Of a stretch of 64,000 bases of DNA, positions 42,851 through 52,849 are shown piece after piece; the stretch's first letter is position 1, and the number at the start of each line of letters is the position of its first letter. This stretch comes from Pseudomonas taiwanensis DSM 21245 (GTDB taxonomy: Bacteria > Pseudomonadota > Gammaproteobacteria > Pseudomonadales > Pseudomonadaceae). The notes below the pieces were generated by a model. The model did no database searches and had not been told where the DNA came from. It worked only from the letters and a program-made list of their open reading frames with translations. Position numbers and translations under genes: made by a program. Location of the stretch: contig NZ_AUEC01000029.1 in the NCBI RefSeq assembly GCF_000425785.1, positions 1-64,000 of the forward strand, in the 5' to 3' direction.

Positions 42851-42899
42851 GAGCGTGCATTAACTTGCAGCACTTACTCACTATCACGTGGACATTAAT

Positions 42900-43499
42900 A
42901 TGAAAAAATTTTCCCTGGCCGCACTGACCCTGTCGCTTATCACCGCTTCGGCCGGCGTCCTGGCCGCCGAGCCCACCGGACCGGTCAAGGGTGGCAGCGG
43001 CAAGATTTCCTTCACCGGCGTGATCAACAATGACGCCTGCTCGGTCGATGGCGCCAACGCCGACCGTATGATTGCCGTAGACATGGGCACCGTTTCGATC
43101 AAGGACATGGGCACCGCCGAAAACCCAACTTCGGGCCGCGTGACCGGCAAGGACTTCAACCTCAACGTCAACTGCAACGTCGGCACCAAGGTGGCGATGG
43201 TCTTCGATGCCAACAGCGGCGGCTCGGGCCTGGTGACTGGCAAGAAGGTCCTGGCCCTGACCAAGGGCACCGGCACCGCCGCCAACGTCGGCATCGCCCT
43301 GCTCGACCCCAACGGTAACCTGATCGACCTGAGCTCGGCCGCCACCGCCAAGATCCAGAGCGAAGTGCACGGCACGGGCGCCGAGGGCGGCGACGCTACC
43401 CTGAGCTTCTCCGCGGCCTACGTGACCACCGGCGCAGCGGGCACCGCCACTGCCGGTCGTGGTGACGCCACCCTGCCGTTCATCCTGCAGTACGAGTAA
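42900..43499 (+). CDS. major fimbrial subunit, type 1/CupD1-like pilin
   Basis: A 199-residue pilin. I start at MKKFSLAALTLSL (42900); a GTG four codons earlier overlaps the ribosome site. Signal peptide cleavage is near LAA-EP. The mature domain shows the pilin pattern: ISFTGVINNDACSV, second Cys in LNVNCNVG, and the C-terminal beta-zipper ending in QYE with the penultimate Tyr. It should polymerise by donor-strand exchange as the rod subunit. First gene of the pilin-chaperone-usher set. Confidence 0.93.
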   Translation: MKKFSLAALTLSLITASAGVLAAEPTGPVKGGSGKISFTGVINNDACSVDGANADRMIAVDMGTVSIKDMGTAENPTSGRVTGKDFNLNVNCNVGTKVAMVFDANSGGSGLVTGKKVLALTKGTGTAANVGIALLDPNGNLIDLSSAATAKIQSEVHGTGAEGGDATLSFSAAYVTTGAAGTATAGRGDATLPFILQYE

Positions 43500-43569
43500 T
43501 CACTTCGCAGCTGCTCCCTGGGCGAGGCTGATCAGCCTCGCCACTCCTTCGTCCCGCAAGGTATCCACC

Positions 43570-44322
43570 ATGTTGCGTCGTTCTATGTATCCCGTTCTCG
43601 GGTTGCTGGGCATGCTCGTTGCCGCCCAGGCAACCGCCAGCATCTCCCTGAGCGCCACCCGCGTCGTGTTCGACGGTGCTCACAAGGAAGCCAATGTCAT
43701 CGTGCGCAATGGCAACCAGGAAGTCCTGGTGCAATCCTGGGTAGACAGCGGCGACAGCGCCAAAGCGCCCGCGCCGTTCGCTGTGACACCACCGTTGGCC
43801 AGGGTAATGCCCAAGCAGGAACAACTGCTGCGTATTCTCTATGAAGGCCAAGGCCTGCCGACCGATCGCGAATCGGTGGTCTGGCTCAATGTCCAGGAAA
43901 TCCCGCAAGCCAGTACCAAGGCCAATACCTTGCAACTGGCGGTGCGTCAACGTATCAAAATTTTCTTTCGCCCGGCCGACCTGCCCGGTAATGCACTGCT
44001 GGCACCGGAGCAATTGGTCTGGCAACTGACCCAACGCGGCGGACACGCACAACTGACTGTAAACAACCCCAGCCTGTTCCATGTGTCCATGGCCGATATC
44101 GAACTTAAACGCGGAAAGCAAACTGTGCTCAGCGTCGACTCGACCATGATCGCCCCGCGTGCAAACAGGACATTCAGCTCGGCACTTTCCCAGGTGGAGG
44201 GCCCGTTGACGCTCACGTTCAAGAGCATCAACGACTATGGCGCCCAACATGAATATTCCGTGCAGTTGAACACTGCCCAGCCTGGTAGCGCAAAGCCTGC
44301 CGAACCCGCCATCGCCCTGTGA
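43570..44322 (+). CDS. periplasmic fimbrial chaperone
   Basis: A 250-residue PapD-like chaperone. I start at MLRRSMYPVLG (43570) because it gives a signal peptide ending near ATA-SI; the open frame upstream overlaps the pilin gene in another register. Family features: SLSATRVVFDGAHKEANVIV, LLRILYEGQGLPTDRESV and RQRIKIFFRPADLPGNAL. It resembles the chaperone at 32981 in layout but differs enough to suggest separate clients, here the pilin. Confidence 0.93.
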   Translation: MLRRSMYPVLGLLGMLVAAQATASISLSATRVVFDGAHKEANVIVRNGNQEVLVQSWVDSGDSAKAPAPFAVTPPLARVMPKQEQLLRILYEGQGLPTDRESVVWLNVQEIPQASTKANTLQLAVRQRIKIFFRPADLPGNALLAPEQLVWQLTQRGGHAQLTVNNPSLFHVSMADIELKRGKQTVLSVDSTMIAPRANRTFSSALSQVEGPLTLTFKSINDYGAQHEYSVQLNTAQPGSAKPAEPAIAL

Positions 44323-44408
44323 AACCGTAGCGCCCACACCTCACGCGTCTGGTCCCGTGCGGCCTCCCCGTGCCCAGCCCGTGCCGGGACATGAAATAGG
44401 TTCCTCGT

Positions 44409-46964
44409 ATGTCTCTGTCCATCGCCTCCCGCTCCGTAGTCGGCGCCGCTGCAGGCGTGCGCGCGCTCAATGGCGGCACGTTTCGTCCGGCCTGGAAGCT
44501 CAACGCCCTGTCACTGGTCATCTGCACCACGCTACCCGGCTTGGCAGCGGCGCAGGATGACCCGCACCTGCAAGGCTTCAACACCACCTTCCTGCAGGGC
44601 GCGCAATCGGCGGTCGACTTGCAACTGCTGCTGTCGGCCAACAGCGTGCTGCCGGGCAATTATCGGGTAGACCTCTACAGCAACGACGTGCTGGTGGGCC
44701 GGCGTGACATCGACTTCAACCGCAACCCCCAGACCGGGGTCGTGGAACCCTGCCTGACCCTGGAGCTGCTCGGACAGTTGGGCATCGACATGGACAAGCT
44801 CAAGGCCCAAGGTCGTCTGGTTGACGCCCAGGCGTGCTACGACCTGCCCACTCTGATCGACCAGGCCAGCTTGAGCTACGACTCCAATCACCTGCGCCTG
44901 TCCGCCAGCATTCCGCAGGTTGCGATGAAACGTGGCTTGCGCGGCTATGTCGACCCGCAGCTGTGGGATGCCGGGGTGTCCGCAGCGTTCGTAAACTATC
45001 AATTCAATACCAGCCGCAGCGCCGGCGATGCCCAGACCCGCATCAACAACAACCTGAGCCTGCGCAACGGTATCAACCTCGGCAGCTGGCGCTTGCGCAA
45101 CGAGTCGAACTTCAGCAGCGGTACCGGTCGGCCGGACACTTTCAAGAGCAACCGCAGCTATGTGCAACATGACGTGACGGCGCTCAAGGGCCAGTTCAGC
45201 GCAGGCGACATCTTCAGCGACACCGACCTGTTCGACAGCGTGCGCTACCGGGGCCTGAAACTGGCTTCGGACGAAGGCATGCGCGCCGATAGCGAGCGCG
45301 GCTACGCGCCGGTGGTCAGGGGTGTAGCCCAGACCAGTGCCAGGGTCGAGATTCGCCAGAACGACTACGTGCTCTATACTACCAACGTTCCGCCCGGCCC
45401 ATTCGAAATCAGCGACATCTACCCCAGCGGCTCCAATGGCGACCTGGAAGTCACCATCATCGAGGCCGACGGTCGCCGGCGGGTCAGCACGCAAGCATTC
45501 TCCAGCTTGCCGCTCATGGTCCGCGATGGCCAGGTCAAGTACAGCCTCTCCGCCGGACGCTACAACAGCAATACCGAGGGCCTGGCCAGGCCGCAGATGC
45601 TCAGCACGACGCTGGCCTACGGCCTGTCCAACACCTTGACTGGCGTCGTCGGCCTGCAAGCCACCGACAACTACAAGGCACTGGCCGTGGGCAGCGGTTT
45701 GAACACGCTGCTGGGCGCATTCTCGCTCGATGTCACCCACTCCTCGAGCAAGGCCCAGGGCCAGACCACCCAGGGCAACAGCTTGCGGGCGCTGTACGCC
45801 AAGACATTCACCGGCACCGACACCAACTTCACACTGGCCGCCTACCGCTACTCCACCGAGGGCTACCGCACCCTCGCCCAGCATGTCGAGGACATGAGCA
45901 CAGATTTGGTCAAACGCAGCGGCAACTCCAAGACCCGAACCGACCTGACCATCAACCAGAGTCTGGGCCGCAACCGCGCCTTCGGCAGCCTGTACCTGAC
46001 GGCCACCGACCAGCGCTACTGGAACCGAGGCGGCTCGCAGAGTCTGTCCGCAGGCTACAGCAACAACTGGGGCGAAGTTTCCTACAACATCGACGTCAGC
46101 CGCACCAAGGAACTGGGAACTTCAGGCCCTTCTGGGGAAGATACCCAGTTCAACGTATCGGTGTCGTTCCCGCTCGGCAGCCGCGCCCGTGCACCTCGGG
46201 CGTTCGTCACCACGAGCACGCAGAAAGGCAATGACACCACCCAGGCTGGCGTCAACGGTTATCTCTCGGAGACCAGCGACACCTTCTACTCGATCCAGGG
46301 CGGGCACAGCCGCACCAGCGGCAGCTCGGCATCGGCCAACCTCAATACCCGCACCTCGGTCGCCGACATCAGCCTGGGCTATAGCCAGGGACGCGGCTAC
46401 GACTCGCAGAACCTGAACATCGCCGGGGCCGTCGTCGCCCACCAAGGTGGCATCAACCTCGGCCAGACGCTGAGCGAAACCTTCGCACTGGCCGAAGTGC
46501 CCGGGGTGAAGGGTGCAAAGATCAGCAGCTACAGCGGTGTGGAAACCGGACGTAATGGCTACGCGGTGATCCCCAATGCCCAGCCCTACCGGGTCAACTG
46601 GATCAGCCTCGATACCCGCGATCTGGGGGGCGACATCGAGATCGACAACGCCACGCAGCAACTGGTGCCTCGACGCGGCGCCGTCGTGCTTGCCCGCTAC
46701 ACGGGCAAGAGCGGGCGTCGGGTACAGTTCGAGCTGTTCGACGAGCGTAACCAGTCGATTCCATTCGGCGCCTCGGTCGAAGATACCGAAGGCAGGCAAC
46801 TGGCGATTTCCGACCCAAGCGGCAAGGCATTGGTGCTGTTGGAGCAGGATCAGGGCAGCCTGACCATCAAGTGGAGCGACCGACAGTGTGTGGCGACGTA
46901 TCACCTGCCCGAACGGGACAAAGCGGTGAATTATGAACGCCAGCGCCTGGTGTGCCAGCCGTAG
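44409..46964 (+). CDS. outer-membrane fimbrial usher
   Basis: An 851-residue usher of the FimD/PapC family. It has a longish signal region ending near AAA-QDD, a periplasmic N-terminal domain (FNTTFLQG, then LPGNYRVDLYSNDVLVGRRDI), a 24-strand beta barrel with plug, and C-terminal domains ending with two conserved Cys (RQCVATYH, RLVCQP). It recruits chaperone-subunit complexes and secretes the fibre. It is the only usher in the locus, so it must serve both the pilin and the distant adhesin unit. No Rcs-box-like element precedes it. Confidence 0.95.
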   Translation: MSLSIASRSVVGAAAGVRALNGGTFRPAWKLNALSLVICTTLPGLAAAQDDPHLQGFNTTFLQGAQSAVDLQLLLSANSVLPGNYRVDLYSNDVLVGRRDIDFNRNPQTGVVEPCLTLELLGQLGIDMDKLKAQGRLVDAQACYDLPTLIDQASLSYDSNHLRLSASIPQVAMKRGLRGYVDPQLWDAGVSAAFVNYQFNTSRSAGDAQTRINNNLSLRNGINLGSWRLRNESNFSSGTGRPDTFKSNRSYVQHDVTALKGQFSAGDIFSDTDLFDSVRYRGLKLASDEGMRADSERGYAPVVRGVAQTSARVEIRQNDYVLYTTNVPPGPFEISDIYPSGSNGDLEVTIIEADGRRRVSTQAFSSLPLMVRDGQVKYSLSAGRYNSNTEGLARPQMLSTTLAYGLSNTLTGVVGLQATDNYKALAVGSGLNTLLGAFSLDVTHSSSKAQGQTTQGNSLRALYAKTFTGTDTNFTLAAYRYSTEGYRTLAQHVEDMSTDLVKRSGNSKTRTDLTINQSLGRNRAFGSLYLTATDQRYWNRGGSQSLSAGYSNNWGEVSYNIDVSRTKELGTSGPSGEDTQFNVSVSFPLGSRARAPRAFVTTSTQKGNDTTQAGVNGYLSETSDTFYSIQGGHSRTSGSSASANLNTRTSVADISLGYSQGRGYDSQNLNIAGAVVAHQGGINLGQTLSETFALAEVPGVKGAKISSYSGVETGRNGYAVIPNAQPYRVNWISLDTRDLGGDIEIDNATQQLVPRRGAVVLARYTGKSGRRVQFELFDERNQSIPFGASVEDTEGRQLAISDPSGKALVLLEQDQGSLTIKWSDRQCVATYHLPERDKAVNYERQRLVCQP

Positions 46965-47021
46965 CAGGCGACCCGGGCGCGCAAGCCATCGTTCGTGGCC
47001 CCCGGGGATGATCGGAAACGC

Positions 47022-47120
47022 GATGTAAAAAAATAGTGCGGCCAGGGCTGCCAAAGCCTATGAACAAGGCCGCACCACGCCTTGGCGTGAACTCATGGCG
47101 AGTTCTTTTTTCCTTGAAGG
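47022..47120 (-). ncRNA. possible small RNA with intrinsic terminator
   Basis: On the minus strand three hairpins follow one another: GAACTC/GAGTTC, CACGC/GCGTG, and GTGCGGCC/GGCCGCAC (47036-47075). The last is directly followed by TATTTTTTTA, a good intrinsic terminator. No minus-strand gene lies nearby, so the terminator is orphaned. An unpaired AAGGAAAAAAG stretch precedes the first hairpin. A promoter is not clear; the call rests on structure only. Confidence 0.35.
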
Positions 47121-47139
47121 CGGCGCACTCCTGTACAAT
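47110..47139 (+). promoter_or_regulatory. nhaA promoter
   Basis: TACAAT (47134-47139) is one base from the -10 consensus. A weak -35 (TTCCTT, 47110-47115) lies 18 bp upstream. The predicted start falls at about 47146-47147, exactly where the folded leader begins. Inverted arms GGCGCA/TGCGCC (47121-47126, 47138-47143) flank the -10. Confidence 0.5.
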
Positions 47140-47146
47140 GCGCCCT

Positions 47147-47224
47147 GGGTGCTAGCTGCATGAGGCAGTGACGCAGGTTAAATGGACACGCAGGTCGGGC
47201 CGCCTTGCGGGAGTTCTTGCGCCT
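47147..47224 (+). promoter_or_regulatory. structured nhaA leader, candidate ion-sensing riboswitch
   Basis: The leader folds as a junction closed by GGTGC (47148-47152) with GCGCC (47219-47223). It encloses CTGC/GCAG (47156-47168) and CCGC/GCGG (47200-47210), with a duplicated ACGCAGGT (47171-47178, 47188-47195) between them. The ribosome site GGGAG abuts the last hairpin and the closing stem ends one base before the ATG. This resembles the nhaA-associated RNA motifs later reported as Li+ sensors; I cannot check the consensus here. Confidence 0.55.
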
Positions 47225-48583
47225 ATGCAAAAAACCAAGCTAACCCGTGCCCAGCAACTGGCTGCCCATGCCTTCGCCAACCTCGAACGCTTCCTGCATA
47301 TCGAAGCTGTCAGTGGTGTGGTCCTGCTGGTCGCTGCCATCGCCGCCCTGATCTGGGCAAACTCCCCCGCTGCCGCCAGTTACGACGCACTCTGGCACAC
47401 GCCTATTTCCTTCGGGATCGGCTCGCTGGTGGTCTCGCAGTCGCTGCATTTCTGGATCAACGACGGCCTGATGACCATTTTCTTCCTGGTCGTCGGCATG
47501 GAGATTCGCCGTGAAATCCATGAAGGCGCCCTGTCCAGCCTGCGCCAGGCCACGCTGCCCATGGCCGCTGCCATCGGTGGTGTAGCGATCCCGGCACTGA
47601 TCTACCTGAGCTTCGGCCATGCGCCAGCCGAGCAACAAGGGTGGGCGGTACCCACCGCGACGGATATCGCCTTCGCCGTTGGCGTCCTGGCGCTGCTGGG
47701 CAAGTCGATTCCCGCGAATGTCCGCGTTTTCCTGCTGGCCCTGGCGATCATCGACGACATCATCGCCGTGCTGATCATCGCCTTCTTCTATTCCGGCGGC
47801 CTCGATTACAGCGGCCTCGCCTTGGCTGCGGTTGGCCTGCTGTTGGTGGTGGGGCTGCAGAAGATAGGCGTCGGGTCGGCATACGCCTATGTCATACCAG
47901 GCTTGATCACCTGGCTGGGCATCCTGATGACCGGTGCCCACCCGACCCTGGCCGGCGTCGTGCTCGGCTTGATGACCCCCGTTGCTGCAATGCCCATGCG
48001 TCAGCGCCCGCTGGAGGCGATCTCGCAATTCACCGGTGAACTGCTGGGCCGCGCGCAGACCCCGGAGCAGGATCCACATCAACTGATGGCCCCCCTCAAG
48101 CGTCTGCGCCTGGCACAACGCGAACTGGTCGCACCGGTGGTGCGCATGCAAGGTCACCTGCACCCCTGGGTGGCCTACGCCATCATGCCGCTGTTCGCCC
48201 TTGCCAATGCTGGCGTCAGTCTCTCGGGTGTCGACCTGTCCGCTCCAGGGCCTTACTGGGTGATGACTGCCGTAGCGGTCGCACTGGTACTCGGCAAGCC
48301 GCTGGGCATCGTCAGTGTCAGCTGGCTCATGGTCCGGTTGGGGTGGTGCGCATTGCCTGCCGGTGTGACCTGGGCAGGTATCACCTTGATCGGCTTGCTG
48401 GCGGGTATCGGCTTCACCATGTCGATCTTCATCGCCAACCTCGCCTACGCCGATCCAGCCGCCTTGGGTGCCGCCAAACTCGGGGTGTTGTCCGGTTCGG
48501 TCATCGCCGCCGTCATTGGCCTCACCTGGGGCTTCTGGAGCCTGCGCCGGGGTGCGGCCAGCACCAAGGTCGAAGCCGTCTGA
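47225..48583 (+). CDS. nhaA: Na+/H+ antiporter NhaA
   Basis: A 452-residue inner-membrane antiporter. I start at [17 protein letters not shown] (47225); the GTG-started longer frame would translate the structured leader. Eleven to twelve spans are seen; the essential Asp pair lies in [12 protein letters not shown] after [18 protein letters not shown]. It is longer than E. coli NhaA, mainly at the N-terminus and a hydrophilic loop (about 285-310). It exchanges Na+ or Li+ for protons at alkaline pH. Confidence 0.95.
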
Positions 48584-52227: not shown

Positions 52228-52304
52228 TGGCGCAGCGGACGGGACTCGAACCCGCGACCCCCGGCGTGACAGGCCGGTATTCTAACCGACTGAACTACCG
52301 CTGC
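52228..52304 (-). tRNA. tRNA-Asp (GTC), copy 3
   Basis: A 77-nt tRNA with encoded CCA. Acceptor stem GCAGCGG pairs with CCGCTGC; anticodon GTC lies within CCTGTCACGCC; T-loop GGTTCGAGTCC. Identical in body to the two copies upstream. Last gene of the tRNA operon. Confidence 0.95.
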
Positions 52305-52440
52305 GTATCGCTTGGGCTTGCGCCCGGTAAAACCTGATCTACTCTGCTTGGTGCTTGGCACCCAGCGGTAGACACAAAAAAGCGACACGATGATCGCTTC
52401 CCTTGTTGCTTCGAGGCGTTCAAGGACCTCGAAACGAAGA

Positions 52441-52517
52441 TGGCGCAGCGGACGGGACTCGAACCCGCGACCCCCGGCGTGACAGGCCGGTATTCTAACC
52501 GACTGAACTACCGCTGC
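52441..52517 (-). tRNA. tRNA-Asp (GTC), copy 2
   Basis: Same 77-nt sequence as the copy at 52228, with encoded CCA. The spacer following it (on the minus strand) repeats part of the spacer after copy 3, including a decayed hairpin near 52381-52400, so the unit was copied together with its flank. Confidence 0.95.
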
Positions 52518-52616
52518 GTATCGTTCAGGCTTTCGCCTGATTGAAACTGGGATCAGCCTCAGGCATTTTCGCCTTTTGGCTTCAGACCGGTGCAAGGCAC
52601 CCATCTGTTGAAAAAG

Positions 52617-52693
52617 TGGCGCAGCGGACGGGACTCGAACCCGCGACCCCCGGCGTGACAGGCCGGTATTCTAACCGACTGAACTACCGCTGC
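52617..52693 (-). tRNA. tRNA-Asp (GTC), copy 1
   Basis: Same 77-nt tRNA-Asp with encoded CCA. It is the promoter-proximal Asp copy, downstream of tRNA-Val. Confidence 0.95.
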
Positions 52694-52773
52694 GCATAGT
52701 GGACTTGCGTCCTGTTCCTCTCTGGCGTTTCGCTTCTTTCAAAGCGGCCTGCACCAGGAACGATCTCAGGAAG

Positions 52774-52849
52774 TGGTGGGTGATGACGGGATCGAACCGC
52801 CGACCCTCTGCTTGTAAGGCAGATGCTCTCCCGGCTGAGCTAATCACCC
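52774..52849 (-). tRNA. tRNA-Val (TAC)
   Basis: A 76-nt tRNA with encoded CCA. Acceptor stem GGGTGAT pairs with ATCACCC; anticodon TAC is within CCTTACAAG; D-loop TTAGCTCAGCCGGGAGAGC. First gene of the four-tRNA transcript. Confidence 0.95.

Follow-up and report, generated by a model that had tools for sequence, protein, structure and literature searches.

The question raised by this locus was whether the folded leader in front of nhaA in Pseudomonas taiwanensis is an ion-sensing riboswitch, and how such an RNA could govern access to the start codon. The window analyzed (the whole stretch of 64,000 nucleotides) contains on its forward strand an open reading frame of 452 amino acids (positions 47225 to 48583, start codon ATG at 47225) that was identified by profile search as the Na+(Li+)/H+ antiporter NhaA (TIGR00773, 400 bits against a cut-off of 254; PF06965, E = 5.5e-139). 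We assign a probability of roughly 0.85 to the reading of its leader as a translational ON riboswitch of the nhaA-I (Li+-I) class, with Li+ as the presumed ligand and a presumed ON direction for this copy, and with a six-base box beside the start codon as a hypothetical OFF-state clamp.

A scan of the 64-kb window with 4227 Rfam families produced a match to the nhaA-I RNA (RF03057) at positions 47147 to 47209 of the forward strand, covering the full model (1 to 55 of 55) at 42.8 bits (gathering score, 37; E = 3.6e-5). The original motif paper is reportedly Weinberg 2017. As in the class, where the transporter is usually nhaA, the aptamer sits in the 5' leader of a cation transporter gene, with 15 nt between its end and the ATG, and the conserved GGGUGY, CAGGU, and P2 loop GGUCGGGCC are all present. 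Between 46900 and 47400, a permissive Rfam scan at E ≤ 1 found no family besides nhaA-I, including no match to the nhaA-II (Li+-II) model. A preliminary description of this DNA had proposed that the leader is of the Li+-responsive nhaA riboswitch kind, naming a covariance-model search and compensatory changes in relatives as checks. The proposal held on both, with an nhaA-I score above the gathering threshold and compensatory changes among homologues in each of P1 and P2 (see below). The class is Li+ responsive (White et al. 2022; PMC9646797), with other nhaA-I members assayed, one of them from Pseudomonas monteilii. Every class feature examined was found in the leader, which belongs by its sequence to the nhaA-I (Li+-I) class; the Li+ response is a property of the class.

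At E ≤ 0.001, searches of the whole genome (5.4 Mb, 67 contigs) gave a single nhaA-I RNA and a single match to this NhaA, and the putative Li+-sensing switch thereby stands before the sole NhaA found in the genome. Upstream lies a fimbrial cluster (42888 to 46964), with pilin-like and chaperone-like genes recognized by eye and an usher recognized by profile match, followed by a terminator-like hairpin and then by the nhaA promoter. Terminator-like sites on both strands of 46950 to 47300 numbered 2, versus 0.6 expected; the only one on the forward strand is this hairpin with its T6 run (47089 to 47105), which sits between the usher gene and the nhaA unit and probably ends the fimbrial gene cluster. 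On the reverse strand, at 52231 to 52849, four tRNA genes were found, three of which have identical scores and sequences with a GTC anticodon and are, by our reading, tRNA-Asp genes.

Homologous leaders were collected from five overlapping genome samples. At E ≤ 0.001, nhaA-I RNAs were found in 95 of 398 Pseudomonas genomes (90 above the cut-off), 16 of 398 genomes of the phylum sample, 7 of 369 of the class sample, 68 of 299 of a Burkholderiaceae-type family, and 6 of 289 of another class. An NhaA-like gene followed in 122 of 189 parsed loci. Many of the remaining loci were followed, by eye, by a different antiporter-like protein; both of those examined belong to PF07399, a putative Na+/H+ antiporter family that is counted together with NhaA in PMC9646797. 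The genus set comprised 106 rows minus four loci that were under the cut-off and had no NhaA-like gene downstream (L117 to L120), leaving 102; L115 and L116 were kept though under the cut-off. The non-genus set comprised 83 loci minus six under the cut-off (L044, L045, L122, L271, L272, and L273), leaving 77, which were used for the permissive complementarity scan and for hexamer conservation; removal of L303 (mis-parsed start) and L308 (under the cut-off) left 75, and L043 and L121 were kept though under the cut-off.

Three Pseudomonas loci (L064, L027, and L101) carry an nhaA-I RNA with no NhaA-like gene behind it: in L064 (477 to 1076) a serine resolvase (PF00239) follows the RNA, L027 resembles it by eye, and the gene in L101 is esterase-like by the same criterion. 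The box position described below no longer fully matches GGGUGC in these loci, and the RNAs look like orphaned riboswitches. In the closest relative (L102, genome G384; 94% identity over 270 amino acids), the nhaA frame is broken at most 27 codons after the ATG, beside a run of A, which is either a sequencing error or a real frameshift.

The transcript predicted for the window begins with the aptamer. A -10 element, TACAAT, lies at 47134 to 47139 on the forward strand and predicts a start at about 47146 to 47147; a generic promoter scan of 46950 to 47300 found no sigma-70-type promoter. A TANNNT element whose end lies 5 to 8 nt upstream of the aptamer occurs in 97 of the 102 Pseudomonas loci and in 67 of the 75 others, and this fixed distance probably places the start of the message on the first aptamer G or beside it. 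The spacing also supports the earlier placement of the transcript start at the first base of the folded region.

The aptamer consists of the conserved 5' strand GGGUGC (GGGTGC in DNA; 47147 to 47152), the P1 hairpin (47150 to 47175; UGC/GCA foot, internal loop, and GCUGC/GCAGU), and the P2 hairpin (47189 to 47209) with the conserved loop GGUCGGGCCGCC, all on the forward strand; U4-G5-C6 of the 5' strand form the foot of P1. Both hairpins were placed by model match and covariation. P1 could be read in 171 of 177 loci, its 3' foot not being located by rule in six, and its foot takes the form UGN/N'CA, in which U4-A and G5-C are nearly invariant. U4, G5, and N6 were paired in 170, 170, and 169 of the 171 loci, respectively, with the N6-N' pair occurring as C-G, U-G, U-A, G-C, or G-U (shuffles, mean of 139 and maximum of 150). 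All four outer pairs of P2 were present in 154 of 177 loci, in many pair types, where a bulge of one base was tolerated on either side. Since related species are not independent, the number of events is smaller than these counts suggest; P1 and P2 are backed by compensatory change among relatives.

Two inner hairpins, a duplicated sequence, and a Shine-Dalgarno sequence abutting the last hairpin had also been described, and all were recovered. The Shine-Dalgarno sequence GGAG (47210 to 47213, forward strand) directly follows P2, 11 nt before the ATG. The duplicated ACGCAGGT occurs at 47171 to 47178 and at 47188 to 47195. It was rejected as a functional repeat: the first copy is P1 foot and linker, the second is P2 and loop, and the second place reads CGCAGG in 32 of 100 Pseudomonas loci, about a third.

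The same description had the junction closed by a GGUGC/GCGCC stem. The complementary strands exist as described, with GCGCC ending one base before the ATG, but the stem was not confirmed as the functional fold. GGGUGC (47147 to 47152) and GCGCCU (47219 to 47224) are complementary and are paired in the minimum-free-energy (MFE) structure predicted for the leader as far as the ATG region. That leader is no more stable than its shuffles (z = +1.25), of which 184 of 200 equaled or exceeded it, and single-sequence folding energy was dropped as evidence. Once at least 14 coding bases were added, other folds beat the stem. Compared with the aptamer fold, the box-paired fold was better by 3.7 kcal/mol in window RNA ending at the ATG and by 1.4 kcal/mol with 13 more bases past the ATG, and it was worse by 0.4 kcal/mol with 24 more bases, where a third fold wins; the predicted energies thus depend on the coding length included and show no clean switch. 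Since U4-G5-C6 belong to P1, the GGUGC/GCGCC stem and P1 partly exclude one another. The stem is absent from the Rfam aptamer model, and if formed it more likely belongs to the switching part than to the aptamer.

The 3' strand of this stem falls within a six-base box that is a candidate expression platform. In the window the box reads GCGCCU (47219 to 47224, forward strand), directly before the start codon and complementary to GGGUGC at six of six positions with G-U pairs allowed. Outside Pseudomonas, a hexamer, RYGMCY, with 0.5 to 0.7 bits at four positions comes after P2 and a spacer of seven weakly conserved positions, none above 0.28 bits. Of the 102 Pseudomonas loci, 84 had the core YG[AC]CY starting 17 or 18 bases after the P2-loop CGGGCC, as did 41 of the 75 others; anchored on the ATG instead, the count in 67 of the non-Pseudomonas loci peaked at only 13. 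Outside Pseudomonas the spacing of the box is therefore fixed to P2 and not to the ATG, and the box follows the RNA fold, not the start codon. By pattern, the 102 Pseudomonas boxes comprise 40 that open with GTG and 7 that open with ATG (likely start codons), 50 that directly precede an ATG, and 5 of neither kind; a start codon inside the box makes coding constraint a confounder for box conservation in some Pseudomonas loci.

The complementarity of the box differed between lineages. Because the region is G/C rich, a permissive search for complements is weak: within 45 nt after P2, with G-U allowed, a six-mer complementary to GGGUGN was found in 93 of 100 Pseudomonas loci (40.5 expected) and, with no enrichment, in 42 of 77 non-Pseudomonas loci (38.2 expected). 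Counts at fixed offsets with control offsets were therefore used; two alternative offsets were allowed at each locus, to the advantage of the box, and the controls likewise used two adjacent offsets. In Pseudomonas, the box matched the 5' GGGUGY at six of six positions in 80 of 102 loci and at five or more in 94 of 102 (G-U allowed; controls, 3.0% and 22%), and it fully matched the P2-loop GGUCG in 3 of 102. In 53 non-Pseudomonas loci without an NhaA-like gene, GGUCG was fully matched in 27 (control, 6.0%), and GGGUGN was matched at six of six positions in 4 and at five or more in 29 (control, 27%). Neither target dominated in the 22 non-Pseudomonas NhaA loci (GGGUGN at six of six in 2 and at five or more in 10, control 24%; GGUCG in 4). 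Three Bradyrhizobium loci have boxes fully complementary to GGGUGC, two at offset 16 (L157 and L171) and one at offset 18 (L141), beyond the counted offsets. A pattern scan of contigs gave at least 119 stretches; among at least 118 parsed matches, 30 had an NhaA-like frame downstream by a criterion that misses PF07399 genes, and in 19 hand-picked from these, GGGUGN was matched at offset 16 or 17 at six of six positions in 4 and at five or more in 12. The rows of that scan from Actinobacteria and similar groups are probably chance matches. One genus locus, L112 (G181), whose genome has a second copy, is the only one of the 102 with GGGCAC in place of the 5' GGGUGY; its box, GUGACU, keeps five of six pairs.

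Predicted structural ensembles were compared with those of shuffled sequences in 93 Pseudomonas and 70 other loci (odd-spacing loci and three genus loci without NhaA dropped, identical leaders counted once). The box was paired more in real leaders (0.70 versus 0.58 in Pseudomonas, 0.71 versus 0.55 elsewhere), which supports some predicted pairing of the box and leaves its partner unspecified. Pairing of the box with the 5' strand was not significantly above that in shuffles (0.22 versus 0.12, P = 0.72, in Pseudomonas; 0.20 versus 0.18, P = 0.74, in the others). With 50 nt after the P2 loop (100 Pseudomonas and 70 other loci; odd-spacing loci dropped, identical leaders counted once), it was about 0.02 in both real and shuffled Pseudomonas leaders and, elsewhere, 0.01 versus 0.03, below the shuffled value. 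Covariation between box and aptamer was sought in a table of N6 against the first box position (27 loci), which gave P = 0.20 and leaned away from pairing.

Under the proposed mechanism, transcription would start at the first G of the aptamer, as the conserved -10 element suggests. At high cellular Li+, the aptamer (P1, P2, and the conserved G-rich joints) would be stabilized, as in the class; GGAG after P2 and the AUG would then be free, and NhaA would be made and would export Li+. At low Li+, the box beside the AUG may base-pair with conserved parts of the aptamer, in this leader most simply GGGUGC, which would dissolve the P1 foot and bury the start region, and Li+ binding would withdraw the aptamer bases from the box. 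Counting against such a clamp are the structural ensembles, which single out no partner, the 5'-strand pairing at or below its shuffled level with 50 nt after the P2 loop, the N6 table, the energies without a clean switch, and the change of partner from lineage to lineage. In PMC9646797, Li+ alone among the monovalent ions tested turned on a reporter from Azorhizobium caulinodans, and the P. monteilii aptamer bound Li+ with a KD of about 30 mM, Na+ having an effect only at about tenfold-higher concentration. The class is described there as Li+ activated, and most members are speculated to control ribosome access, without detail in the available text.

Three other readings of these data were weighed. 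The same aptamer could instead sense Na+, like the Na+-II variants of the nhaA-I motif, and would then serve salt rather than Li+ stress; we regard this as decidedly improbable. Variants of the motif respond to Na+, a single C-to-U change broadens the response to Li+, Na+, and NH4+, and NhaA transports both ions (PMC9646797); salt raised a gene named nhaA-II 7.4-fold in P. putida KT2440 (PMC11200750), which would bear on this reading if that gene carries such an RNA. However, the terminator-bearing variants are placed by the available text of PMC9646797 only in Deltaproteobacteria, before genes of unknown function, and neither feature of these Na+-II variants was found here: the window copy precedes nhaA, with no terminator-like site on the forward strand between aptamer and gene. 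It also comes from the same genus as the Li+-preferring P. monteilii aptamer and keeps the U in GGUCGGGCC, which may or may not be the specificity position. Improbable, too, is that the GGUGC/GCGCC stem closes the functional ligand-bound fold, in which case the start codon would become hidden upon binding instead of freed. In its favor are the MFE structure, which has this stem as long as the leader stops at the ATG, and the conserved spacing between P2 and the box. Against it, nearly every locus pairs U4, G5, and N6 with the P1 3' foot, N6 with compensatory change; moreover, the class activates expression, and the 73-nt P. monteilii aptamer, probably too short to include the box by our length estimate, still bound Li+ (PMC9646797).

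A real clamp could also be aimed at the linker AGGU or the P2-loop GGUCG instead of the 5' GGGUGY, which for the window we consider fairly unlikely. The frequent GGUCG matches in non-Pseudomonas loci without an NhaA-like gene agree with it, as does linker pairing above that in shuffles in Pseudomonas (0.18 versus 0.07, P = 0.0024). Against this, GGUCG is rarely matched in Pseudomonas, where its predicted pairing falls below that in shuffles (0.07 versus 0.10), and outside Pseudomonas its pairing is not significantly raised (0.16 versus 0.07, P = 0.69); a C as the last box base (e.g., GCGCCC or TCGCCC) breaks the linker pair and keeps the pair to G1 of GGGUGY. The translational ON riboswitch, with the box as a candidate platform that captures aptamer bases at low Li+, is thus retained for the nhaA leader, and judging from complementarity the partner of the box appears to differ between lineages. 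More tentatively, and with the odds somewhat against it, Li+-I riboswitches may share a P2-anchored six-base box that captures aptamer bases without Li+: the 5' GGGUGY in Pseudomonas, where the box lies on or against the start codon and many species have a GUG start inside it, and the P2-loop GGUCG in many Burkholderiaceae-type loci. If so, a change of essentially one base in the box would have given a single switch class, in the course of evolution, two anti-aptamer targets. No description of the box appears in the available text of PMC9646797, the only primary study of the class found by literature search, and a conserved P2-anchored box with lineage-specific complementarity would give concrete form to the ribosome-binding-site speculation of White et al. 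2022.

Among known systems, nhaA-II (Li+-II) RNAs have gene association and ligand in common with nhaA-I, but neither sequence nor architecture (PMC9646797). The Na+-I (DUF1646 motif) and Na+-II variants have a consensus similar to that of nhaA-I (PMC9646797), and in one Na+-I example terminator formation comes at the cost of P2 (PMC9337991), like the competition proposed for the window leader; the described examples act by transcription termination (PMC9646797 and PMC9337991), whereas the window has no terminator-like site between aptamer and nhaA. Compared with nhaA-I (Li+-I; RF03057) itself, the window RNA differs in a P1 whose short internal loop leaves three model pairs nonstandard and in a 3' box and a promoter-abutting 5' end that lie outside the Rfam model, but it shares P1, P2, GGGUGY, CAGGU, GGUCGGGCCGCC, and the position before nhaA, and the P. 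monteilii member comes from the same genus.
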